Positions 1-11,328 of a stretch of DNA of 64,000 nt are shown piece by piece. This stretch comes from Calditerrivibrio nitroreducens DSM 19672 (lineage in GTDB: Bacteria; Chrysiogenota; Deferribacteres; Deferribacterales; Calditerrivibrionaceae): positions 744,001-808,000 of the forward strand of contig NC_014758.1 in assembly GCF_000183405.1 (NCBI RefSeq). The letters run 5' to 3'. The translations under genes and the position numbers were made by a program. Below the pieces are notes generated by a model, which searched no databases, was not told where the DNA came from, and was given only the letters and a program-made list of their open reading frames with translations. How positions within the stretch are numbered: position 1 is the stretch's first letter; the number at the start of each line of letters is the position of its first letter.

Positions 1-644
1 TATTAAAATATTTTAACTGTGAAATTCATGAAATATACGGCACATCAGAAACATCAACAGCTACAGATATAAACTTATTAAAATTCCCTAATAAGTTTAA
101 AAGCGTAGGTTATCCTATTTCTGGGGTTTCAATTAAAATATTGGATAATGATAAAAATGAATTAAAATACAATAATATTGGTGAGATTGCTATAAAAACA
201 GACTTAATATTCAAAGAATATTTGAACATGCAAAAAGAGACTGAAATTTCCTTCACAAAAGACAGGTATTTTTTAACAGGAGATTTAGGCTATATAGATG
301 AAGATGGTTTTTTATATTTCAAAGGCAGAAAAAAATTTATTTACAAGGTTGGAGCTATCAATGTTTATCCAGAAGATATAGAAAAAGTTTTATTAGAATT
401 TGAAGGTATAAAAGAGTGTTGTGTGGTTGGCATTCCTGAAAATAGTTTCTTAGGAACTAAGCTTGTAGCTTATTTTACTTCCAATGAAAAAATTGATTTG
501 CCAGAATTGAGAAAGTTCTGCTTAAAAAGATTATCTACTTATCAAGTACCTTTTAAGTTTATAAAATTGGATGAATTACCAAAAAATCACGTAGGTAAGA
601 TAGATAGGAAGAATTTAGAAAAAATTGCTTTAGAGGATAATTAA
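1..644 (+). CDS. Acyl-adenylating enzyme (AMP-binding family), 5'-truncated
   Basis: This is the C-terminal part of an adenylate-forming enzyme (acyl-CoA synthetase/AMP ligase class), which activates a carboxylic acid with ATP and passes it to a thiol. The reading frame is open from base 3, so the start lies before the window; the first in-frame ATG at 141 is internal. The sequence shows the A5-type motif YGTSETS, then FLTGDLGYIDEDGFLYFKGR, which holds the conserved Asp that binds ribose and the hinge region, and a C-terminal lysine in NHVGKIDRKNL matching the A10 catalytic lysine. It ends one base before the FkbM gene and lies in a cluster with an acyl carrier protein, so loading that carrier is a more likely role than CoA ligation. 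The substrate cannot be told. Confidence 0.85.
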   Translation, partial: LKYFNCEIHEIYGTSETSTATDINLLKFPNKFKSVGYPISGVSIKILDNDKNELKYNNIGEIAIKTDLIFKEYLNMQKETEISFTKDRYFLTGDLGYIDEDGFLYFKGRKKFIYKVGAINVYPEDIEKVLLEFEGIKECCVVGIPENSFLGTKLVAYFTSNEKIDLPELRKFCLKRLSTYQVPFKFIKLDELPKNHVGKIDRKNLEKIALEDN

Positions 645-645
645 T

Positions 646-1725
646 ATGAAAGAAAAAGTGTGTATTGTAGGAGTTTGTGATAAGTGGAGAGAATTGCTTT
701 ATCAAGAATTGATTGAAGATGGAAAAGAAGTGTTATTTTATATAGATAGTTTTAGTAAACATTCTAAAATTCCAACAATTAAACCAGATGAGGTAAAAGA
801 TAAATTACAGTATGAAGAGGTTACTTTTTTATTTACTTACCCTATAGTGGGAGGTAGGAAGGTGGTATTGGATATATTAAAATCTCAGTTAGGGGAAATG
901 CTTATTTGGGACTACAAATATACTTACACAAAATATAAAAATGTTTTCAAAAGAGTTTTAGAAAATGATGGAGATTGGTGGTTAGGCAGTGGTTATAACA
1001 AACAAAAAGCTTTTGATACGATTGAATTATTAACTGATGAAAAAAGTAAAAATATTTTTAAAGCATGGTTAACTTTCAGAGAAAGTTTTGATATCAATCT
1101 AATTCCTGATCCAGAAGAAAATCAATATTTCCCAGAAGATATTCAAATGGAGAATTCTTTACCTAAAGAAGTAAGTTTTTTAGATTTTGGTGCTTATGTG
1201 GGAGATACTTTCGAATTCTTCTATTCAAAAATAATTAATCTTGGGGGAAAAATAGTATATTATGCAGGTTTTGAACCATTTGAAAGGAATTATAGAAATC
1301 TTTTAGAAAACCTAGAAAAGTATGCAGATGTTTCTATGAACTTATTGCCTTTAGCCGCAGGAAGTAAAAGCGAGTTGATTTTTTTTGAGGAAAAAAGTGC
1401 TGATAGTCAATTTTCAAAATCATCGAGCTGCTATAATCATGATAGTATACCCATTTTAGCTGTTGTGCCTGATGAAATTTTCAGGAACATAAAGTTCAAT
1501 TTAATTAAAATTGATACTGAAGGTAGCGAATTGGAAATTTTGAAGGGTTTAAAAAACATAATTAAGGAAAATAAGCCTGTGATGATGATTAGTTTATACC
1601 ATAAACCAGAAGATTTTTATGAAATACCTTGGTATATTAAACAAATTTTTCCTGATTCAGCTTTTTATATTAGGACACATGCGACATTTTTTATGGAAAC
1701 CGTGCTTTATGTAATTCCTAAATAA
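646..1725 (+). CDS. FkbM-family SAM-dependent methyltransferase
   Basis: Predicted S-adenosylmethionine-dependent O-methyltransferase of the FkbM family (359 aa). The methyltransferase domain is in the C-terminal half: the SAM-binding motif LDFGAYVGDTFE lies at residues 179-190, and the diagnostic FkbM motif KIDTEGSELEILK at about 288-300. The N-terminal 170 residues begin with a Rossmann-like strand (KVCIVGV) and resemble the small nucleotide-binding domain that often precedes FkbM domains in glycan clusters. It starts one base after the upstream ligase, so the two are translationally coupled. In this setting it probably methylates a sugar or its acyl substituent; the acceptor is unknown. 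Confidence 0.85.
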   Translation: MKEKVCIVGVCDKWRELLYQELIEDGKEVLFYIDSFSKHSKIPTIKPDEVKDKLQYEEVTFLFTYPIVGGRKVVLDILKSQLGEMLIWDYKYTYTKYKNVFKRVLENDGDWWLGSGYNKQKAFDTIELLTDEKSKNIFKAWLTFRESFDINLIPDPEENQYFPEDIQMENSLPKEVSFLDFGAYVGDTFEFFYSKIINLGGKIVYYAGFEPFERNYRNLLENLEKYADVSMNLLPLAAGSKSELIFFEEKSADSQFSKSSSCYNHDSIPILAVVPDEIFRNIKFNLIKIDTEGSELEILKGLKNIIKENKPVMMISLYHKPEDFYEIPWYIKQIFPDSAFYIRTHATFFMETVLYVIPK

Positions 1726-1743
1726 TGTGGTTGGGGAATAAGT

Positions 1744-2817
1744 ATGAAAAAATTAAAACTTGCTTTCATAGGTGGTGGGATAAACTCTATAGCCGGCTAT
1801 CCACATTTCGCTGCAACGAATTTGGATGGCAAGTTTGAGATTTTGGCAGGTGTATTTAGCAGAAATAAAGAAATTAATTTAAAAACTGCAGAGAGATATA
1901 ATGTTAAGTACATCTTTCATGATGTAGATAAATTATTAGATGAGATGAGAGATGAAGTGGACATTATAGTCATATTAACTCCTACACCTTTTCACTATGA
2001 ACACACAGTAAAAGCCATAAAAAAAGGTTTTGCGGTTTTTTGTGAAAAGCCTTTATTTAAAACTTTAAAAGAAATAAAAAACTTTGAAAAAGAGTTTATT
2101 AATAAAAGTTATTTTTTAGCAGTCAGCTACAACTATATAGGGTATCCTTTGATGATTGAATTAAGAGATTTAATACAGAAAGGTATGTTAGGCGATATCG
2201 TGTCTATCAATCTCGAAATGCCACAGGAGAGTTTTTTAAAGCCCCCTAAAGGCATTGATTATCCAAGTTGGTGGAGAAAAAAAGATGACGAAATCCCTAC
2301 TATTGCATTAGATCTTGCATCTCATCTATTTTCCATGAGTTATTTCCTAACTAAGGAAAATATAACAGAAGTTATATCTATTAAAAGTAAGTATTCAAAA
2401 TTTGGAGTGATTGATGATATTAAAGCCTCTGTAAAATATGAAAATAGTACTACAGGAATATTGTGGGTTAGTAAAGTAGCATTGGGAAACAGAAATGGTT
2501 TGAAAGTATCTGTTTACGGAACGAAAGGTTCAGCAGTTTTTTTTCAGGAGGAGCCTGAAAAAATTGTCTTTACAGATAGTAATGGCATTAAAACAATACT
2601 TGATAGAGCATCAAATTTAGAAATTTCCAAAAACAAACTTTACAATAGAATGATACCTGGTCATCCATCTGGTTATATAGAAGCCTTTGCTAACATTTAT
2701 AGTGCTATTTATGATAGTTACCTTTACTACATAGAGAATGGAGTTATGAAAGAAGATCCTTTAATTTGGACCTTTGACAAAGAAAAATTAAACTTTGAGT
2801 TTTTATCAAAATTATAA
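1744..2817 (+). CDS. Gfo/Idh/MocA-family NAD(P)-dependent oxidoreductase
   Basis: A 357-aa sugar oxidoreductase of the Gfo/Idh/MocA family. The N-terminal Rossmann fold begins at once (LAFIGGGINS, residues 6-15). The family signature EKP is at 101-103 (FCEKPL), where the lysine is part of the active site. The C-terminal alpha/beta substrate domain includes ALDLASHLF, corresponding to the family's conserved Asp-x-x-x-His region. Such enzymes oxidise or reduce ring hydroxyls of nucleotide sugars. It sits 18 bases after the methyltransferase and 11 before the acyl carrier protein, so it belongs to the same glycan operon. The substrate is unknown. Confidence 0.85.
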   Translation: MKKLKLAFIGGGINSIAGYPHFAATNLDGKFEILAGVFSRNKEINLKTAERYNVKYIFHDVDKLLDEMRDEVDIIVILTPTPFHYEHTVKAIKKGFAVFCEKPLFKTLKEIKNFEKEFINKSYFLAVSYNYIGYPLMIELRDLIQKGMLGDIVSINLEMPQESFLKPPKGIDYPSWWRKKDDEIPTIALDLASHLFSMSYFLTKENITEVISIKSKYSKFGVIDDIKASVKYENSTTGILWVSKVALGNRNGLKVSVYGTKGSAVFFQEEPEKIVFTDSNGIKTILDRASNLEISKNKLYNRMIPGHPSGYIEAFANIYSAIYDSYLYYIENGVMKEDPLIWTFDKEKLNFEFLSKL

Positions 2818-2828
2818 GGAGGAAATTT

Positions 2829-3089
2829 ATGAGTAAATATGAAGTTGCTAAAGATATATGTGATTTTTTAAGTATAGAGTATGGAGATATTGAAGAGGTA
2901 TATAATATCAACTATATAGAAAAAGGTTACGTAGATTCTTTTGGAATTATTCAACTTTTTTTATACATTGAAGATAAGTACGGAATAAGCTTTGATGAAA
3001 AAGAAAGGATTGACAGGGATATTTTTACATTAGAAGGTCTTGTGAATAAAATCTTAAATAAATTAGGAAGAGATAATGAAGAAATATAA
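2829..3089 (+). CDS. Acyl carrier protein
   Basis: A free-standing 86-aa acyl carrier protein. The phosphopantetheine attachment site is DSF at residues 36-38 (Ser37) in place of the usual DSL, followed by the acidic recognition helix II typical of carriers (FLYIEDKYGI). A strong AGGAGG precedes the ATG. It overlaps the next gene by 14 bases. It is not in a fatty-acid cluster: its neighbours are an adenylating enzyme and an AAC(3)-like acyltransferase. It therefore probably carries a special acyl group for glycan decoration, comparable to the free ACPs of O-antigen loci. That role is inferred from context; the carrier identity itself is well supported. Confidence 0.85.
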   Translation: MSKYEVAKDICDFLSIEYGDIEEVYNINYIEKGYVDSFGIIQLFLYIEDKYGISFDEKERIDRDIFTLEGLVNKILNKLGRDNEEI

Positions 3090-4926
3090 AAAAACAGATA
3101 TTATAAAGGCACTAAAAGATGTAGGCTTAACAAAAGGAGATAAAGTATATTTTAGTTCTAATTTGGGAGTTGTTGGTTTACCAGAAGAAAACATTAAGAA
3201 TATAGATGATCTATGTAAACTTTTTTTAGATTCGATATTAGAAGTTATAGATGTGAATGAAGGTACTTTATTGGTGCCTTGTTTTTCGTATACTGCTGGT
3301 AAAAATCTTGCAAGTGAGCCGGCTATCTTTGATTTAAAAAACACAAAACCAGAAATAGGATCGTTTCCATATTTCTTTTATAAACAAGATAATGTTAAAA
3401 GATCAATAGACCCTATGTTGTCTGTATGTTGTATTGGTAAAGACTGTGATAGATTTTTTACTTATGATAAACAGTGTACTTACTGTGAAGGTGGATTTTT
3501 ATCTAAGTTATCTAAAAGTAGTGTTAAAATATTAAATATTGGAATAGGTCCTGACTGGATGCCATTTATCCATTATGTTGATTGGTTAGTAAAAGCTCCT
3601 TACAGGTATGATAAGGTTTTTAACACGGTGATAAAAGATGATTTTCTCTTGAATTATCCTTGGCTATATAGTGTTAGGATTTTATCAGAAATCAGTTTTC
3701 CTTATGAAAAGAGGGTTGCAGAAAAAGCACTGAAAGAGGGGATATGGAAAAAAGCACCTTTAGGGAATATTGATATCTTTTTAGCTGTTGCGTCAGATTA
3801 TTTTAAAGTGGCGTACAAAATGGCTAAAGAGAATAATTGGATTTTAGCCAAAGGTCCGGTATGTGATGTTTTTCAAGAGGAGGAAAAAAGAATAAAAGAA
3901 GAAAAATACAGTATCCACTATAACAGGGATAGTGATTTAGAGATTTTGGAGAAATTATTATCTATACCGAGATATAAGATGAGTAAATCTTTTGATGATG
4001 GAGTAAATTATGTTGTTAATTATTTTGGTGTAAGAGACTATAAATTGATAGAATCTGAAACCGGAGAGCATATTTATTGGTCTATTGTGCCTGAAAAATG
4101 GATCTTGGAAGACTACCATCTTAAAGATAGTAAAGGGAATATAATTTTTTCAAAATCAGACAATAAATTTAATAGGATTTTTGAACATTCTTTATCATAC
4201 TCAGGTAAAGTATCAAAAGAAATACTATTAAAACATGTTAAAATATCAATGGAAGGGTTGGAACATTTTAGCTGTGAACACAATAGAGATTGGGGATTTG
4301 TTATCCATTTCAGTGAACTTGACAATTTAAAGGATGATGAGTATGAAGTATATATAAAAACGGCTTTTATAAAGTCTAAACTTAAAGGGGTTGAGTTTAG
4401 TCTTTTTAGTGGTGATTGTTATCCAACTTTATCCTTAATAGGATTTTTAGATGGTCCATACAAAGCAGACGAAAACTTATCAGCTATTTTTCTATTAAAG
4501 GGTATATATGATGAGCTAAAGAATATAGACTTAAAACTTAATTTGAATTTTGCTATTTTACCAAATAAAGTTGGGTTGAATATGTATATCAAAAAAAGAC
4601 AAGATAAAATAAAAGATTTTATCATTCTAAATTTTTTGGGCAATAGTAAGCCTTTTACATTTTTAACAAACAATCGGAATAGGTTTAAAATACCTTCTTA
4701 TCTTTTTCCGTTGGAGTACTTTTTAGGTTACGGAAACAACCCTGTTTTGGAGAAGTTTGAAAATTTTGATGTAAACATATTGAATATAATAAGAAGTGAA
4801 CAGCCTTACTCACACAAATTTCCTCACCCAAAAGCAAATACGGATGTTGATACTCTATTAGATTTTAATAGTGTAAATGAAAGTGTAAATTTCATAAAAA
4901 AAATACTCTTGGAGGGTAATTTGTGA
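3076..4926 (+). CDS. AAC(3)-like N-acyltransferase fused to a degenerate DUF4910-like aminopeptidase domain
   Basis: A 616-aa two-part protein. Residues 1-270 match the aminoglycoside 3-N-acetyltransferase (AAC(3)) family: an N-terminal GLTKGDKVYFSSNLG segment, VKRSIDPMLSV, and His166 in FIHYVDWL at the place of the family's catalytic histidine. Residues 285-616 align by eye along their whole length with the next protein (for example WSIVPEKW with WTVPDEW, and FLDGPYKADENLSA with YLCHPSMANNELSG). The metal ligands are mostly lost: His to Gly460, Glu to Asn, Asp-Glu to Asn-Asn, with only a C-terminal His584 kept. I infer that the N-terminal part transfers an acyl group from the upstream carrier protein to an amino sugar, and that the C-terminal part is a non-catalytic binding or partner domain. 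It overlaps both neighbours by a few bases. Confidence 0.8.
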   Translation: MKKYKKTDIIKALKDVGLTKGDKVYFSSNLGVVGLPEENIKNIDDLCKLFLDSILEVIDVNEGTLLVPCFSYTAGKNLASEPAIFDLKNTKPEIGSFPYFFYKQDNVKRSIDPMLSVCCIGKDCDRFFTYDKQCTYCEGGFLSKLSKSSVKILNIGIGPDWMPFIHYVDWLVKAPYRYDKVFNTVIKDDFLLNYPWLYSVRILSEISFPYEKRVAEKALKEGIWKKAPLGNIDIFLAVASDYFKVAYKMAKENNWILAKGPVCDVFQEEEKRIKEEKYSIHYNRDSDLEILEKLLSIPRYKMSKSFDDGVNYVVNYFGVRDYKLIESETGEHIYWSIVPEKWILEDYHLKDSKGNIIFSKSDNKFNRIFEHSLSYSGKVSKEILLKHVKISMEGLEHFSCEHNRDWGFVIHFSELDNLKDDEYEVYIKTAFIKSKLKGVEFSLFSGDCYPTLSLIGFLDGPYKADENLSAIFLLKGIYDELKNIDLKLNLNFAILPNKVGLNMYIKKRQDKIKDFIILNFLGNSKPFTFLTNNRNRFKIPSYLFPLEYFLGYGNNPVLEKFENFDVNILNIIRSEQPYSHKFPHPKANTDVDTLLDFNSVNESVNFIKKILLEGNL

Positions 4927-6212
4927 GTATTGGACAATCTATGCATGATTTGATAAGAAGATTATTTCCTATAAACAGAAGTCTAACAGGTAAAGGGTTC
5001 AGAAAATCTCTGGAAATAATAAAAGAATATGTCTCTGGTTTAGAAATAAAACATATTGAAAGTGGTGAAAAATGCTTCGATTGGACGGTTCCAGATGAGT
5101 GGGATGTTGAAGAAGCATACTTAGAAGAGGTAGATAGTGGAAAAAGAATTGTAGATTTTAGAAATAATAATCTACATCTTGTGGGATACTCCATTCCGGT
5201 AGATGTGGTTTTAAATTTTGAAGAATTAGATAAACACCTACATTATAGAGAAGACTTACCAGATGCCATCCCTTATGTTACTTCTTACTATAATCCTTAT
5301 TGGGGGTTTTGCCTTAGTTATAACCAATACAAAAATTTAGATAGAAATAAAAAATATAGAGCTGTAATAAAAAGCAGGCTTTTCAGAGGTGTTTTGAATT
5401 ACGGAGAGATTATAATAAAAGGAAAAACAGATAAAGAAATATTTTTTTCAACATATTTATGCCATCCTTCTATGGCAAATAATGAATTATCTGGGCCAGT
5501 TATGGCAGCTTTTTTAGCAAATTATGTTAAAGAAAGAAAAGATAATAAGTATACTTACAGGTTTATATTTATACCGGAAACTATAGGATCTATTTGTTAT
5601 ATTTCCAAAAATTTAGAAAATATGAAAAAGAATATTGTTGCTGGATTTGTATTGACTTGTTGTGGTGATGAAGGCAAGTTTTCTTATGTCCCAAGTCGAT
5701 ATGGTGATACTATTGCTGATAAAGTAGCATTAAATTTGTTAAAATATGAATTAGATGAATTTAAAGAGTACAGTTTTTTAGATAGAGGCAGTGATGAAAG
5801 ACAGTATTGCTCTCCTGGAGTGGATTTGCCTGTTTGTTCAGTAATGAGAAGCAAATATGGAACTTTTAAAGAATATCACACATCTCTCGATAATCTGGAT
5901 TTTGTCACTCCTAAAGGATTAGAGGAAACTTTTGAGTTTTATAAAAAGGTAATCAATATATTAGAAAATAATGATATTTGTGTTTCCAATATTTTATGTG
6001 AGCCACAAATGGGTAAAAGGGGATTATATAATACTATTTCTCATATGGGTAGAACAGGATCAGTAAAACTTATGATGGATTTTATTGCTTATGCTGATGG
6101 AAGAAATGATCTGATAGATATTGCAAATATTTTAAATTGTTCAGCATATAATTTGCTGGAAATAAAAAATATTCTATTAAAAAATAACTTAATTGAGAAA
6201 AGTGATGTGTAA
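4923..6212 (+). CDS. DUF4910/DUF2172 aminopeptidase-like zinc protein with C-terminal winged helix
   Basis: A 429-aa member of the polysaccharide-locus family with an M28-like aminopeptidase fold (DUF4910 with the inserted DUF2172 region). Probable metal ligands are visible: His181 in LCHPSMANNELSG, Glu219 in IPETIG, Asp291/Glu292 in RGSDERQY and His319 in EYHTSLDN. The insert holds DWTVPDEW. The last 60 residues look like a winged-helix domain (DIANILNCSAYNLLEIKNIL). Its start overlaps the previous stop (ATGAG...TGA), and that neighbour carries a decayed copy of this fold. Family members occur in glycan biosynthesis clusters without a settled reaction. Removal of an acyl or aminoacyl group from an amino sugar is a guess. 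Confidence 0.8.
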   Translation: MSIGQSMHDLIRRLFPINRSLTGKGFRKSLEIIKEYVSGLEIKHIESGEKCFDWTVPDEWDVEEAYLEEVDSGKRIVDFRNNNLHLVGYSIPVDVVLNFEELDKHLHYREDLPDAIPYVTSYYNPYWGFCLSYNQYKNLDRNKKYRAVIKSRLFRGVLNYGEIIIKGKTDKEIFFSTYLCHPSMANNELSGPVMAAFLANYVKERKDNKYTYRFIFIPETIGSICYISKNLENMKKNIVAGFVLTCCGDEGKFSYVPSRYGDTIADKVALNLLKYELDEFKEYSFLDRGSDERQYCSPGVDLPVCSVMRSKYGTFKEYHTSLDNLDFVTPKGLEETFEFYKKVINILENNDICVSNILCEPQMGKRGLYNTISHMGRTGSVKLMMDFIAYADGRNDLIDIANILNCSAYNLLEIKNILLKNNLIEKSDV

Positions 6213-6762
6213 TGATAATTTAAAGCAGTTTTATTATGAAGGGTTAGACTTTATAGATTTTACTATAATTAACAGTGAGGATAAACATAGTGAAATTCTG
6301 GCGATTAGAAATAACGATTCAATCAGAAAATATATGTATAATGATAAAATAATTACATTGGAAGAGCATATTCAATTTGTAAATAGCCTTAAGAAAGACA
6401 ATACAAAAAGATATTGGGCAGCATATGAATATTCAACTTTTGTGGGTTCTATTAATTTAACGGAAATAGATTGGGTTAATAAAAGAGCAAAATTAGGTAT
6501 TTATACTAATCAGAGTATTAAAGGTGTGGGTGTAAAATTGTTAAATACTTTAAAATGGATTGCTTTTGAAAAATTTTCTTTAAATTGTTTGAGGCTTGAA
6601 GTTTTGGCTAATAATATTAAAGCAATTAGTTTTTATGAAAAAAATCAATTTAAACTTGAAGGAGTACTAAGAGAGTATGTTTTACAAAATGAGTCTTATT
6701 TGGATAGTAAGATTTATAGTATATTAAGAAAAGAGTATTATGAGAACAATCACGGTAACTAA
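6205..6762 (+). CDS. pseH: PseH-like GNAT N-acetyltransferase (pseudaminic acid pathway)
   Basis: A GNAT-fold acetyltransferase resembling PseH, which acetylates the 4-amino group of UDP-4-amino-4,6-dideoxy-AltNAc in pseudaminic acid synthesis. The N-terminal stretch IRNNDSIRKYMYNDKIITL is characteristic of PseH. The acetyl-CoA loop region is somewhat altered (NQSIKGVGVKLLN), with the usual C-terminal NIKAISFYEKNQF. I place the start at ATG 6205, giving 185 aa and an 8-base overlap with the previous gene; a TTG at 6193 would add four residues. PseI follows with overlapping frames. With PseI next door the pathway assignment is strong, though the acyl donor could be the local carrier protein instead of acetyl-CoA. 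Confidence 0.8.
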   Translation: MCNDNLKQFYYEGLDFIDFTIINSEDKHSEILAIRNNDSIRKYMYNDKIITLEEHIQFVNSLKKDNTKRYWAAYEYSTFVGSINLTEIDWVNKRAKLGIYTNQSIKGVGVKLLNTLKWIAFEKFSLNCLRLEVLANNIKAISFYEKNQFKLEGVLREYVLQNESYLDSKIYSILRKEYYENNHGN

Positions 6763-7771
6763 AAATGTCTTTATCATAGCGGAGCTTTCTGCCAATCATA
6801 ATCATAACATAAGCATTGCAAAAGAAACGATTTGTGCAATGAAGGAGTCAGGGGCTGATGCTGTGAAATTACAGACTTATACACCAGATACTATAACGAT
6901 TGATTGTAAAAACGATTACTTTAAGATTAATCAGGGGACGCTGTGGGATGGTAGATATTTTTATGATCTGTACAAAGAAGCCTTTACCCCATGGGAATGG
7001 CATTTGGAGCTGAAAGAACTGGCTGAAAAGCTCGGACTTGTTTTCTTTTCCACACCTTTCGATAAAACAGCTGTGGATTTTTTGGAAGAATTAAATGTTC
7101 CTATTTATAAAGTTGCCTCTTTTGAAATTACTGATATACCATTAATTGAATATATTGCTTCCAAAGGTAAGCCAATTATCATATCCACAGGGATAGCGAC
7201 AATCGAAGATATCGAGCTTGCCGTAGAAACTTGTAAAAAGAATGGTTGTGAAGAGATTACACTATTAAAGTGTACATCAGCATATCCTGCGCCACTTGAA
7301 GAGGCTAATTTGTTGACTATTCAAGATATGAAAAATAGATTCAATGTGGAGGTGGGTTTATCCGACCATACCCTTGGTATATCTGCTCCTGTTGCAGCCG
7401 TTTCACTTGGAGCAAAAGTAATTGAAAAACATTTCATACTTGATAAAAAGCTTGGTGGTCCTGATGCAGCTTTTTCCCTTGAACCTGAAGAGTTTAAGGC
7501 GATGGTAAAGGCAATCAGGGAGGTGGAAAAAGCACTGGGAACTGTTACATATGAGCTTACAGAAAAGCAGAAAAAGGGTAGGGAGTTTTGCCGATCACTT
7601 TTTGCTGTGGAGGATATTAAAAAAGGGGAAGTCTTTTCAGAAAAAAATGTCAGAAGTATCCGTCCAGGATATGGTTTACATCCTAAGTATTATAAAGAGA
7701 TAATTGGCAAAAAGGCAAATCGGGATATTCCAAGAGGTACACCGATAAGTTGGGATATTATTGAAAAATAA
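6740..7771 (+). CDS. pseI: Pseudaminic acid synthase
   Basis: A 343-aa NeuB-family synthase that condenses a 2,4-diacetamido-2,4,6-trideoxy hexose with phosphoenolpyruvate to give pseudaminic acid. The TIM barrel opens with FIIAELSANHNHN and includes the PseI-typical segment QGTLWDGRYFYDLYKEAF, ahead of STPFDKTAVDFLEE and a conserved VGLSDHTLG. The C-terminal 60 residues are the antifreeze-like SAF domain (GREFCRSLFAVEDIKKGE to RDIPRGTPI). It starts inside the end of pseH. From roughly base 6850 on, base use shifts toward that of the rest of the window. The other pathway genes (pseB, C, F, G) are not here and probably lie before the window. Confidence 0.92.
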   Translation: MRTITVTKNVFIIAELSANHNHNISIAKETICAMKESGADAVKLQTYTPDTITIDCKNDYFKINQGTLWDGRYFYDLYKEAFTPWEWHLELKELAEKLGLVFFSTPFDKTAVDFLEELNVPIYKVASFEITDIPLIEYIASKGKPIIISTGIATIEDIELAVETCKKNGCEEITLLKCTSAYPAPLEEANLLTIQDMKNRFNVEVGLSDHTLGISAPVAAVSLGAKVIEKHFILDKKLGGPDAAFSLEPEEFKAMVKAIREVEKALGTVTYELTEKQKKGREFCRSLFAVEDIKKGEVFSEKNVRSIRPGYGLHPKYYKEIIGKKANRDIPRGTPISWDIIEK

Positions 7772-7805
7772 AAATTACTATCCTGAATTTTTTTCTTCTT
7801 ACTTT

Positions 7806-7821
7806 TGGCATATATTTTGTT
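7806..7821 (+). promoter_or_regulatory. Possible sigma-54 type -24/-12 site before the Maf gene
   Basis: TGGCATATATTTTGTT has the GG-N10-GC layout of a sigma-54 promoter, with the -24 TGGCA intact and the -12 GC changed to GT. It lies 34 bases before the Maf start codon, in the only gap of this part of the locus. Sigma-54 control is common for flagellar genes, but one key base is off and AT-rich DNA gives chance hits. Confidence 0.3.
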
Positions 7822-7854
7822 ACTTACAAATCTAAAATATTCGTTGGAGTTATT

Positions 7855-9732
7855 ATGGATTTGTTTGAAAAGAATATGAGATGTCTTGAGGAATATAGGC
7901 CTGAACTATTTAGAAAATTAGTAAATTTTAAACCGTCAAAGTATACAATCATACCTACAAGGCATCCAAAAAAGTATCCAAATTTGCTTCATATTGCATC
8001 TGATAGTATAGCGTATAATCCCAATGACCCTTTCGATACACTACTAAACGAATTGAAGCGAAAGATCCATTTGCCAGTACTTAATCTTTTTTTTGGTTTT
8101 GGACTTGGATATGAATTGATTTTGATGTTGCAGCATTTTGTGGATAAAGAGTCTGTATATATTGTTGTGGATCCTGAGCTGGAGCCTTTTTATCATGCTA
8201 TGAGAGTAGTTGATTATGAGGCTATGATAAAAGATAAACGTGTTTTTCTCCTTATTGGTGAAGATGATAAAAATATGTATCTTCTTTTGCATGATATTTT
8301 AATGATGAGGAATCTGAAGTTTTACGTAAAAGCTGTGAATATAATTGATAATAGTCTGTCCATAAAATTAAACACGCAGTATTACAAAAATGTTATGGCA
8401 CACCTAAAAGATGCCATAAAAAATGTTCTTTTACATTTTGGAAATGATCCATGGGATTCTTTGATAGGTATTGAGAATACATTTGTAAATATCAATGAGA
8501 TTATTCAAAATCCAGGGATTAAAGATTTAAAAAATAAGTTTGAAAATAAACCTGGCATTGTTGTGGCTACCGGCCCATCCCTCAATAAAAATATTGAGCT
8601 TCTAAGAGGGCTTGAGGATAAAGCTGTGATTTGTGCTGCGGATGCCTCTCTGAGGGTAATGAAAAAATACGGTTTAAAACCACACCTTGTTACCTCTCTT
8701 GAAAGAGTTATAGCAACGTCTAAACTCTTTGAAGGTCTTACGGCAGATGATGTAAAAGATGTATATCTATCAGCATGTCCGGTGATACGACCAGAAACAT
8801 ACGCTAATTTCCCAGGAGAAAGGATAATTGTATATCGGAATTTTGCAACGTTTAAATGGTTGGATATTGAAAAAGGGATATTGGATATAGGCCCTTCCTC
8901 AGCTAATATGGCATTTAAGATCCTTGAGTTTCTTGGCTGTAATCCTATAATATTGATAGGGCAGGATCTTGCTTTCGGAGAGAATGATGTAACTCATGCA
9001 TCTGGTGCAACTTTTGGAGAAAAGGAACAACAATACTACAGTATAGATATATTAGAAGTAGAGGGGAATTTTGTACCAAAAATAAAAACGACTGGTGTGT
9101 GGTATCAATTTTTAAAGTTTTATGAGAAAGATGTGGCAAATTTCAAAGGTAAAGTTGTCAATGCCACCGAAGGGGGGGCAAAGATACCTGGCACTGAAAT
9201 TATGACTTTTAGAGAGGCAATCGATAGATATATCAATGGAAATATAGGTGTACTTGACACAATTAAAAAATCACTTGTATACCCAAGTCCTGAAGAGATA
9301 AAATTTTTGAGAGAAAAAATGAAAAGTAAAGTGATAGAGGCGCTTGAGTATGCTGATGAAGTTATTTTTAGATTAGAAAAGGGGAAGATTCTAACTGAAA
9401 AGTTTACAAATGAAGTAATCAAAAAGTATGAAGAATCAGGTCAAGTTGATTCAAAATTGTATGAAGAATTGTTTGTTGAACTACAAAAACCATTGCAGAT
9501 ATTTTCTGAAATGAAATTTTATGAGATATTTGCACATTTTGTCCAATCATACTTTATCACATCTATGGTGGAAATTAATGGAGTGGTGGGATCAGACCTT
9601 CCAGGTTATAAGAAAAATTTCAGTACTGTGGCTCTGCTGGATGATATGTATCTCGTGATGATCAAGTTAATTATGGCCATGAAAAATTCTATGTTGAATA
9701 TGAAAAGAGAGCTTGAAAAATACGATAGTTAG
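7855..9732 (+). CDS. Motility accessory factor (Maf/DUF115) glycosyltransferase
   Basis: A 625-aa protein of the Maf family, which attaches nonulosonic acids such as pseudaminic acid to flagellin. The central DUF115/MptE-like Rossmann domain (about 200-380) shows PGIVVATGPSLNKNIELL, CAADASLRVMKKYGLKPHLV and SLER, then IDIGPSSANMAF-like and ILIGQDLAFG segments. The N-terminal part has FGFGLGYEL, a glycine-rich motif seen in the family. GGAG lies before the ATG. Its place directly behind pseI joins sugar synthesis to flagellin glycosylation. No glycosylation acceptor (flagellin) gene is in the window. Identity is good; the exact sugar is inferred. Confidence 0.87.
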   Translation: MDLFEKNMRCLEEYRPELFRKLVNFKPSKYTIIPTRHPKKYPNLLHIASDSIAYNPNDPFDTLLNELKRKIHLPVLNLFFGFGLGYELILMLQHFVDKESVYIVVDPELEPFYHAMRVVDYEAMIKDKRVFLLIGEDDKNMYLLLHDILMMRNLKFYVKAVNIIDNSLSIKLNTQYYKNVMAHLKDAIKNVLLHFGNDPWDSLIGIENTFVNINEIIQNPGIKDLKNKFENKPGIVVATGPSLNKNIELLRGLEDKAVICAADASLRVMKKYGLKPHLVTSLERVIATSKLFEGLTADDVKDVYLSACPVIRPETYANFPGERIIVYRNFATFKWLDIEKGILDIGPSSANMAFKILEFLGCNPIILIGQDLAFGENDVTHASGATFGEKEQQYYSIDILEVEGNFVPKIKTTGVWYQFLKFYEKDVANFKGKVVNATEGGAKIPGTEIMTFREAIDRYINGNIGVLDTIKKSLVYPSPEEIKFLREKMKSKVIEALEYADEVIFRLEKGKILTEKFTNEVIKKYEESGQVDSKLYEELFVELQKPLQIFSEMKFYEIFAHFVQSYFITSMVEINGVVGSDLPGYKKNFSTVALLDDMYLVMIKLIMAMKNSMLNMKRELEKYDS

Positions 9733-9983
9733 ATAATTGCTACTTTTATATAAGAATGGAAATTTAAAAAAATATTGTAAAAGAAAACTATTTAGTGTAA
9801 AAAAATATATGCTTTGTTTTTTAAAAAAAGTTTGTTGTGGTTTTTGGGGATTGACTTCCTTCGGCGGTAGCCTGTAAATATTTTAGTATACTAAAGGTAA
9901 TAAATTTAAGAATCTGGATAATTGGCAGAATATGAAATTAGCAGATATTATCGATAATTTTGATAGTTTAAAAGAAACAGAGA
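9733..9983. other. Intergenic stretch before the IS element with a small cut-off ORF
   Basis: About 250 AT-rich bases follow the Maf gene. From ATG 9932 a reading frame (MKLADIIDNFDSLKETER) runs into the left end of the IS element and stops inside it at about 10039. It has no strong ribosome binding site. It may be the 5' end of a gene broken by the insertion, or chance. Upstream, TTGACT (9853) could be a -35 box. I see no other structure. Confidence 0.3.
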
Positions 9984-11328
9984 GACCGCTTCATACTTTG
10001 TGTAAAAGGGTGATTTACTATAATCATGATATCTCATGTTAGCTCAGATGTCCAGCAATTCTTTCATTGAATACTATAGATAACTGAGACATTATTTCTG
10101 CCCAATTGGAAATAGCTTTGTCCCATTTTTTGGAAATATCCTTATAAACTAAAAATACAATTTTAAACAATGCATCATCATTGGTAAATCCTCCTTTACT
10201 CTTAGTTATTTTTCGAATCTGCCTGTTAAAACCTTCAACGGTATTAGTGGTATATATTATCCTTCTAATAGGCTCTGAATACTCAAAATAGGTAGATAAT
10301 TCGGCCCAGTTTGTTTTCCATGAATTAATAACCATTGGATATTTTTCGCCCCATTTAGCAGAAAGATCTTCTAAAGCATCTTCTGCTGCAGATTTCGTAG
10401 GTGCCTTATATACTTTCTTTAAGTCTGACATAAATTCTTTCTGACATTTTGACCCAACATATTTCAATGAATATCTTATCTGATGAATTATACAACGCTG
10501 GACTATTGTCTTGGGAAACACACTGTTTATAGCTTCTGAAAAACCCCTCAAGCCATCCACAGAGGCTATCAGTATATCTTCTACCCCCCTGTTTTTTAAA
10601 TCGGTCACAACAGAAAGCCAAAACTTAGCCCCCTCATTATTCGTAAGCCACATCCCAAGTAAATCCTTTTTCCCCTCAAGCGTTATTCCTATTGCAAAAT
10701 GTAACGATTTATTCCTGTAATAACCATTATCATCTTTCACCTTAAATACCATAGCATCCATATAAACAATAGTATAAATGCTCTCTAATGTGCGACTCTG
10801 CCAGGCACTGATTTCTGGTGCTATCTTATCTAATATCCTAGATATTAAACTGTCTGACATCTCTACACCATACATATCATTTACCTGCTTTTCTATGTCT
10901 CTAAGGCTCATTCCACGGGCATAAAGACTTATTATCTTCTCATCAATACCACTTATTGTTCGCTTGCCTTTGGGAATCAATTTCGGCTCATATTCACATG
11001 ACCTGTCTCGGGGAATATCTAATTCTAAACTGCCAGCATCACTGCGAACAGTCTTCTTGTAGTATCCATTTTTACTATTCTTTTCTGATTCTTCCAGATG
11101 CTCCTCAAGTTCAGATTTAAGAATATTTTCTATCATATTCTTCATAAATTCCTTGGTTAATGAAGATAAATCTTCCTGACTTCTGCAAGTTTTACTCAAC
11201 TCTTTAAAATCTACATTGTTCAGTACTTCTGTTTTGTTTAATTTTGAATTTTACATAACGTTTACGCTCCTAAAGTTTGTTTTTTTATTATACACGATTT
11301 TACTCCTTACACAAACTTTGAAGCAGTA
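9984..11328 (-). mobile_element. IS256-family insertion sequence
   Basis: A complete-looking element of about 1.34 kb with one transposase. The ends are imperfect inverted repeats: GCTTCATACTTTGTGTAA at 9988 on the left and, on the other strand at 11324-11307, GCTTCAAAGTTTGTGTAA; similarity reaches a little further on both sides. I could not find a convincing 8-9 base target duplication, so the exact outer limits are uncertain by a few bases. The insertion lies 8-9 bases before the start codon of the DUF354 gene. Confidence 0.85.
10039..11199 (-). CDS. IS256-family transposase (mutator type)
   Basis: A 386-aa DDE transposase of the IS256/mutator family, about full length for the group. The likely catalytic triad is Asp148 (VYMDAMVF), Asp215 (ASVDGLRGF) and Glu322 (TNTVEGFNRQIRK). 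The conserved CIIHQIRYSLKYV segment follows the second Asp. The N-terminal third carries the usual zinc-free DNA-binding region with LSLYARGMS-like text (KIISLYARGMSLRDIE). No frameshift or stop interrupts it, so the element may still be active. Confidence 0.93.
   Translation of the reverse strand: MSKTCRSQEDLSSLTKEFMKNMIENILKSELEEHLEESEKNSKNGYYKKTVRSDAGSLELDIPRDRSCEYEPKLIPKGKRTISGIDEKIISLYARGMSLRDIEKQVNDMYGVEMSDSLISRILDKIAPEISAWQSRTLESIYTIVYMDAMVFKVKDDNGYYRNKSLHFAIGITLEGKKDLLGMWLTNNEGAKFWLSVVTDLKNRGVEDILIASVDGLRGFSEAINSVFPKTIVQRCIIHQIRYSLKYVGSKCQKEFMSDLKKVYKAPTKSAAEDALEDLSAKWGEKYPMVINSWKTNWAELSTYFEYSEPIRRIIYTTNTVEGFNRQIRKITKSKGGFTNDDALFKIVFLVYKDISKKWDKAISNWAEIMSQLSIVFNERIAGHLS

Follow-up and report, generated by a model that had tools for sequence, protein, structure and literature searches.

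At the start of the 64,000-nt window analysed here (the whole stretch of the Calditerrivibrio nitroreducens DSM 19672 genome between positions 744,001 and 808,000 of contig NC_014758.1), genes for activating and carrying an acid lie among genes for a flagellin sugar, which raises the question of what acid is made there and where it is placed. The reading proposed, with a probability of about one half, is that of a horizontally acquired acyl-decoration module within a pseudaminic acid (Pse) flagellin-glycosylation locus, in which a 3-deoxyheptonoyl group derived from DAHP would be N-linked to Pse; the substrates and the order of the steps are what we infer from the genes.

Gene content and order of the locus

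The + strand run described in the original prediction, with mostly overlapping or few-base junctions, was confirmed with all its named genes: the 3′ part of an AMP-forming acyl ligase (1–644, the C-terminal part at 3–644 having the Pfam domains AMP-binding and AMP-binding_C), an FkbM-type O-methyltransferase (646–1725), a Gfo/Idh/MocA oxidoreductase (1744–2817), a free acyl carrier protein (ACP; 2829–3089, with a DSF phosphopantetheine serine), an AAC(3)-like gene (3076–4926), a DUF4910 protein (4923–6212), PseH (6193–6762), PseI (6740–7771) and Maf (7855–9732). From the ligase through Maf, the intergenic distances were +1, +18, +11, −14, −4, −20, −23 and +83 bp, respectively. While the gene order was right, the run reaches beyond the edge of the window, upstream to flagellin. 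In particular, the upstream region (chromosome 734–744 kb), in which a search for pse genes had been suggested, contained flagellin, pseB, pseC, pseF, a PIN gene, pseG, a class II DAHP synthase homologue and the 5′ part of the ligase gene, the flagellin and pseB, C, F and G being identified by eye in the translated ORFs, without model scoring. Together with PseH and PseI, these genes complete the pseudaminic acid pathway, so that pseB, C, F, G, H and I, Maf and flagellin are all found in one glycosylation locus. A separate lipid or peptide cluster to which the ligase and ACP might have belonged had been named as the finding that would speak against the prediction, and flagellin and pse genes were found there instead.

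PseH scored 146.5 bits against TIGR03585 (cut-off 93.1), with 4ri1 and 4xpk as solved relatives, and PseI 532.5 bits against TIGR03586 (cut-off 340.25). In Maf, both the MptE-like (PF01973) and the Maf_flag10_N domains exceeded their cut-offs, and it was the sole protein with an MptE-like domain found in the host genome; against the PseD subfamily NF050051 it reached 201.3 bits, below the cut-off of 670.

The module is flanked by pseG on one side and pseH/pseI on the other, its genes overlap, and its G+C content is 25–31% compared to 38–41% for pseB/pseC and 37% for pseI. Such a distinct composition would also fit an acid attached to a target other than Pse or flagellin, such as a lipid or a peptide, in an accidental pse neighbourhood. 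However, the insertion of overlapping genes within the pseG to pseH/pseI stretch, and the flagellin genes adjoining the module in both of the MAGs described below, make this explanation very improbable.

As for the acyl-transfer genes, the full ligase gene, which encodes 495 aa, begins 843 bp before the window; its nearest solved structures were acyl-CoA and related ligases. The ACP had no match in Pfam and weak DltC/ACP matches in NCBIfam, and the catalytic motifs EK and D-x(3)-H of the Gfo/Idh protein were intact. The AAC(3) domain that had been predicted is present, but the gene is really a fusion of 616 aa, in which this domain (approximately residues 1–250) is followed by DUF2172 and by a degenerate DUF4910-like remainder that has lost the metal-ligand motifs. 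The AAC(3) domain matched solved AAC(3) enzymes distantly, and an antibiotic-resistance role was rejected on the score of the fusion against NF033082 (aminoglycoside 3-N-acetyltransferase), which was 35.7 bits and far under the cut-off of 270. The predicted structure of the fusion had a pLDDT of 41.5, and no conclusion rests on this model.

The neighbouring DUF2172-DUF4910-HTH_47 protein is a homologue of the solved putative peptidase 3k9t. It retains the motifs CHPSxAND, PET.G, GSDERQ and EYHT, except for a D to N change in CHPSMANNELSG, the N form being found in many stand-alone members. Because transfer by the AAC(3) enzyme needs a free amine, this putative sugar amidase is the obvious candidate for freeing the amine of Pse. 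Moreover, by gene content the locus has the arrangement of the Cj1295 type, a DUF4910-type protein and an AAC(3)-like acyltransferase accompanying the pse genes; Cj1295 is presumably a DUF2172/DUF4910 protein.

A DAHP synthase homologue in the operon and related loci

The class II DAHP synthase homologue (positions −2176 to −821 relative to the window, chromosome 741824–743179), which lies outside the window and is counted into the system, directly precedes the ligase gene, with an overlap of 23 bp. It matched PF01474 over its full length with 579 bits (cut-off 27), agreed at 77 of the 84 positions that do not vary among 16 other class II enzymes, and presented the active-site motifs KPRS, R-G-D-x-x-N, HGNT, HLEMT and DPRLN. 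The homology with the class II DAHP synthases 5uxm and 2b7o is likewise full-length, every active-site motif being common to both. Unlike them, the host homologue falls below the TIGR01358 equivalog cut-off (498.4 vs. 614.7 bits, with 591.5 bits for the homologue of a Candidatus Riflebacteria MAG), lies in a flagellin glycosylation operon and is redundant in its genome, which in addition encodes one KdsA-like enzyme and three DAHP synthases of class I. The class I enzymes rule out that it is the only DAHP synthase of the genome. Given the score below the cut-off and its long branch, its substrate could have drifted. No class II enzyme was found in the other members of its order that were searched.

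This enzyme had been missed by the original prediction, and it indicates where the acid would come from. No link of a DAHP synthase to pseudaminic acid or flagellin glycosylation was found in the literature searched, in which subscription journals are thinly covered, and within that literature a DAHP synthase in such an arrangement is new.

To find related loci, 385 genomes were scanned twice, separately with the DAHP synthase and with a profile of the AAC(3) fusion, and the best non-self contig was identical in both, the two genes being approximately 4 kb apart; the profile already contained the fusion of that contig, which had been noticed there only through the DAHP synthase match. The contig belongs to the Riflebacteria MAG and carries all seven module genes, including an FkbM homologue and the same AAC(3)-degenerate DUF4910 fusion, together with flagellins, pseBCFG, a NeuB-family synthase and mafs. 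The gene set, for which a search in relatives had been suggested, recurs next to flagellins in a phylum other than that of the host, which ties the acyl-activation genes further to Pse synthesis and flagellin glycosylation. In this MAG, the DAHP synthase lies on the opposite strand, and two unrelated genes (a B12-radical SAM and a disulfide reductase) stand between it and the ligase run.

A second MAG, ADurb.Bin157, was found through the AAC(3) fusion and not through the DAHP synthase. There, a class I-beta DAHP synthase gene (344.7 bits against TIGR01361, cut-off 267.75; motif KPRSSPYSFQG) comes after those for ligase, Gfo/Idh, ACP and AAC(3), with DUF4910 and flagellin nearby and no FkbM homologue. 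The Gfo/Idh gene is immediately 3′ of the ligase in both MAG modules. Judged by its sequence, the class I-beta enzyme stands in for the class II enzyme of the operon, and because of this replacement DAHP synthase activity seems to belong to the module. The full DAHP-type set was found in three loci only, two of them in MAGs that are probably from one phylum.

Two other genomes (G073 and G396) had AAC(3)-DUF4910-type fusions, the rest of the set not being recognised around either of them. With the AAC(3) fusion as query, no relative was found in the viral contigs searched, and only distant single-domain matches in the plasmids searched.

From DAHP to a flagellin sugar

In the proposed pathway, the DAHP synthase would condense PEP and erythrose 4-phosphate to the 3-deoxy-2-keto acid DAHP, whose C2 keto group would be reduced by the Gfo/Idh enzyme. 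FkbM would methylate a hydroxyl of the acid, probably at C2, and the phosphate would be removed by a phosphatase encoded elsewhere. The resulting 3-deoxyheptonic acid would be loaded by the AMP ligase onto the dedicated ACP. DUF4910 would take an N-acetyl off the Pse sugar, the AAC(3) fusion would pass the acid from the ACP to the freed amine, and Maf would transfer the resulting N-(3-deoxyheptonoyl)-type Pse to flagellin. The sugar residue predicted when one acetyl of Pse is exchanged for the acid is approximately 480.20 Da (466.18 Da without the methyl), with an oxonium ion at 481.20, compared to 316.13 Da for Pse5Ac7Ac; a concrete mass is thereby predicted for flagellin in an environmental bacterium. 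Gene content, gene order, cross-phylum conservation, the swap of DAHP synthase class and the intact catalytic motifs are established, and from them we infer the identity of the acid. Against the pathway count the lack of a phosphatase gene in the operon and the fact that, to our knowledge, no Gfo/Idh enzyme acts on such a 2-keto acid. The missing FkbM of ADurb.Bin157 and the position of the Riflebacteria DAHP synthase off the ligase run also weigh against it.

Extra DAHP synthases, such as PhzC, are often found in clusters for aromatic compounds. The enzyme might therefore boost the shikimate pathway, with the ligase activating an aromatic or cyclic acid derived from chorismate or shikimate that ends on Pse; a hydroxybenzoyl version, as an aromatic example, would have a computed residue of 394.14 Da. 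The closeness of the ligase to acyl/aryl-CoA ligases would agree with this, as would the short class I-beta enzyme of ADurb.Bin157 (286 aa), which may lack a feedback domain. Nevertheless, apart from the DAHP synthases, none of the three loci had a recognisable gene for the shikimate pathway, for chorismate lyase or for an aromatic acid, and the conserved Gfo/Idh would be left without a clear role, so that an aromatic acid is unlikely. That a DAHP synthase was recruited from the shikimate pathway for 3-deoxyheptonic acid, carried by the ACP and ending as an N-acyl group on a flagellin nonulosonic acid, is held tentatively, at slightly under even odds. If true, a new branch would draw DAHP into a use outside aromatic biosynthesis, and the module would show how enzymes can supply flagellin sugars with deoxy-aldonoyl groups, which would be a new class of decoration by sugar acids. 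We know of no explanation for the biosynthesis of acyl groups of this type on flagellin sugars.

Comparison with known systems

N-acyl-modified Pse on flagellin has already been described in the form of di-O-methylglyceroyl-Pse, and Cj1295 is needed for the N5-acyl Pse of C. jejuni (PMC3068675). The Cj1293-Cj1297 locus shares with the host pse genes, an aminopeptidase-like protein, an N-acetyltransferase (Cj1296/7) and the Maf family; the acid is the three-carbon glycerate, and no DAHP synthase is reported in the part of that paper available (PMC3068675). In contrast, the acid of the host would have seven carbons, judging from its DAHP synthase, Gfo/Idh and dedicated ligase. In Aeromonas group II polar flagellin glycosylation islands, an ACP and an AMP-dependent synthetase lie between pseBC and pseFGHI, with an additional 3-oxoacyl-ACP reductase and luxC/luxE interpreted as fatty acid genes; unlike in the host, the available part of the report mentions no DAHP synthase, AAC(3) or DUF4910 (PMC7874193). 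The novelty first attached to the ACP and ligase in a Pse island and to N-acyl Pse was therefore overstated, both having been described (PMC7874193, PMC3068675). A role in deacylation was put forward for Cj1295 in 2010 (PMC3068675), and the pathway would give the DUF4910/AAC(3) pair a testable role of this kind. Taken as a whole, the original interpretation was right in the Pse and flagellin context, but it had overlooked the DAHP synthase, the fused nature of the AAC(3) gene and the requirement for a free amine. We know of no test of the deacylation chemistry proposed for Cj1295.

An ACP, a ligase, AAC(3) and DUF4910 near pse genes are an already known kind of arrangement, as in C. jejuni Cj1295 and the Aeromonas islands. 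The host might accordingly make a known kind of acyl Pse, carrying a small acyl group such as O-methylated glyceroyl, and the DAHP synthase would be a bystander. The DUF4910-type and AAC(3)-type proteins of the C. jejuni locus would suit this possibility, and so would a Treponema-like genome (family f265) in which an ACP, a ligase, AAC(3), a methyltransferase and DUF4910 lie beside pseI/C/B without a DAHP synthase. It is nonetheless doubtful, as a DAHP synthase accompanies the AAC(3)-pseudo-DUF4910 fusion, ligase and Gfo in three out of three modules, once being of an unrelated sequence class, and no glyceryl-ACP (FkbH-like) gene was recognised. The Shewanella sfm cluster was also considered as a match and was rejected for having different genes.

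The 3-deoxyheptonoyl reading has a chemical neighbour in T. denticola, whose flagellin reportedly carries a Pse-type nonulosonate of 450.2 Da with an N-acyl 2-methoxy-4,5,6-trihydroxyhexanoyl group, a 2-O-methyl-3-deoxyaldonate (attributed to Kurniyati et al. 2017, a study cited in PMC9862357). We know of no genes that make this acid, and in a spirochaete search for its genetic basis, which yielded the family f265 locus with the general gene set, the NeuB gene stood alone in two possible T. denticola relatives. The acid has six carbons, compared to the seven predicted for the host, and the residue computed for its sugar is 450.185 Da, in agreement with the reported mass.

Gene content and setting of the locus

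The genome of Calditerrivibrio nitroreducens DSM 19672 comprises 2.22 Mb in two contigs, the window being chromosome positions 744001-808000. Since the window edge falls within the ligase gene, the 30 kb 5′ of it were also read. All the genes from which the original prediction had built an ACP-dependent acylation module tied to pseudaminic acid (Pse) glycosylation of flagellin were present in the same order, with overlapping or short junctions, and PseH and PseI passed their curated cut-offs. The pse genes sought upstream were also recovered, as a flagellin gene (756 aa) is followed there by pseB, pseC, pseF, a small PIN gene, pseG, a class II DAHP synthase homologue (451 aa; PF01474, 579 bits) and, directly after it, the ligase (495 aa), whose gene overlaps that of the DAHP synthase by 23 bp. 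Thus, the full Pse pathway, flagellin and the flagellin glycosyltransferase Maf lie together in one 19.5 kb stretch. By eye, a short antitoxin-like ORF and a PIN-domain-like ORF form a VapBC-like pair splitting pseF from pseG (chromosome 740.1-740.7 kb; window about −3860 to −3278), and a transposase-like ORF of the mutator/IS256 type lies directly downstream of maf (10039-11199, − strand).

The inserted run opens with the DAHP synthase gene. The G+C content of the module genes was 25-31%, compared to 37-41% in pseB, pseC and pseI, which fits acquisition. Catalytic motifs were retained in the Gfo/Idh, ligase, ACP and FkbM proteins. The DAHP synthase scored below its equivalog cut-off; of the 84 residues that do not vary among 16 other class II enzymes it kept 77, and every active-site motif is intact. 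Furthermore, three class I DAHP synthases (two I-beta, one I-alpha) were found elsewhere in the genome, so the class II copy should be dispensable for aromatic amino acids; a KdsA-like enzyme was also found. No class II DAHP synthase appeared in the other members of the order searched, and both this enzyme and the AAC(3) fusion were absent from three other genomes of the genus.

Comparable loci and the class of the DAHP synthase

When 385 diverse genomes were scanned for the DAHP synthase, the best non-self contig (L052), from a Candidatus Riflebacteria MAG, also carried a similarly built AAC(3) fusion about 4 kb away, and a profile of the two fusions detected no third of equal quality in the same genomes. 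A tree built from 18 class II enzymes paired the window copy, despite its long branch, with the Riflebacteria one (100/98). In this contig, a DUF4910 gene faces the run ligase-Gfo-FkbM-ACP-AAC(3) fusion, followed by two unrelated genes (B12-binding radical SAM and CoA-disulfide reductase-like; 4561-8681), the DAHP synthase, flagellin, csrA, fliW, flgL and flgK, and, farther on, by additional flagellins, two mafs, pseB-pseC-pseF-pseG and a NeuB-family synthase.

Scanning genome_contigs with the AAC(3) fusion yielded one further locus, in the MAG ADurb.Bin157, whose discovery was independent of any DAHP synthase because the fusion was the query. There, flagellin and the run ligase-Gfo-ACP-AAC(3) fusion are directly followed by a class I-beta DAHP synthase, above the TIGR01361 cut-off and with the KPRSSP motif, and then by DUF4910. 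Judging from the sequences, the same slot is filled by a gene of the same predicted function from another class. This swap, which emerges from just three loci (two from MAGs probably of one phylum), is the strongest evidence in this analysis that DAHP, rather than an arbitrary acid, would feed the module.

Pse islands that contain genes for an ACP and an AMP ligase are already described (PMC7874193), as is acyl-modified Pse (PMC3068675). Moreover, in the Treponema-like family f265, one locus (L115 of G703, 4327-9970) combines pse genes with neighbouring genes for ACP, AMP ligase, AAC(3), a methyltransferase and DUF4910; unlike the window module, it lacks a DAHP synthase and probably uses a different acid. 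The window module is distinguished by the DAHP synthase, its class exchange and the AAC(3)-pseudo-DUF4910 fusion. A literature search of limited coverage found no link between DAHP synthase and nonulosonic acids.

Proposed acyl group and its predicted mass

Acyl-Pse on flagellin is the favoured reading, with a probability of roughly 85%. Whether the acid is a DAHP-derived polyhydroxy acid is close to an even call, and an aromatic acid in its place seems less likely. Along the DAHP-derived route, DAHP would be reduced at C2 by Gfo/Idh, O-methylated by FkbM and then dephosphorylated, no phosphatase being found in the operon; the ligase would put the acid on ACP, from which AAC(3) would carry it to an amine of Pse. 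After PseH, Pse normally has no free amine. In C. jejuni, 2,3-di-O-methylglyceroyl at N5 of Pse requires the flagellin-locus protein Cj1295, for which its authors proposed removal of the N5 acetyl (PMC3068675). As proposed for Cj1295, the DUF4910 protein of the window (4923-6212, + strand) would strip this acetyl.

The flagellin glycan of T. denticola reportedly bears a 2-methoxy-4,5,6-trihydroxyhexanoyl group, i.e. a 2-O-methyl-3-deoxyaldonate, with a residue of 450.2 Da, offering a chemical precedent for the acyl group proposed here. The computed residue mass (450.185) agrees with this value, and the same calculation reproduces the published C. jejuni value of m/z 391. A seven-carbon acid derived from DAHP is predicted to give a residue of 480.20 Da, or 466.18 if unmethylated.

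AAC(3) fusion and DUF4910

The AAC(3)-like protein (616 aa) comprises an AAC(3) domain (4.1e−19) followed by DUF2172 (1.5e−21), and its remainder matches DUF4910 (profile comparison, 98.2% probability) without any metal-ligand motif. The separate DUF4910 protein, of which 3k9t is a solved relative, retains these motifs apart from a D-to-N difference in CHPSMANNELSG, the N form being frequent in stand-alone members. In particular, ANNE(L/V/I)SG was seen in the stand-alone proteins of the window and of eight compared loci, and AND in several fused ones, so the metal-ligand position alternates between N and D. Across eight loci from other Deferribacterales genomes, AAC(3)-like and DUF4910-like genes are often neighbours or are joined into one gene for a protein of about 700 aa. 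Such adjacency and fusion suggest a general deacylase/acyltransferase partnership.
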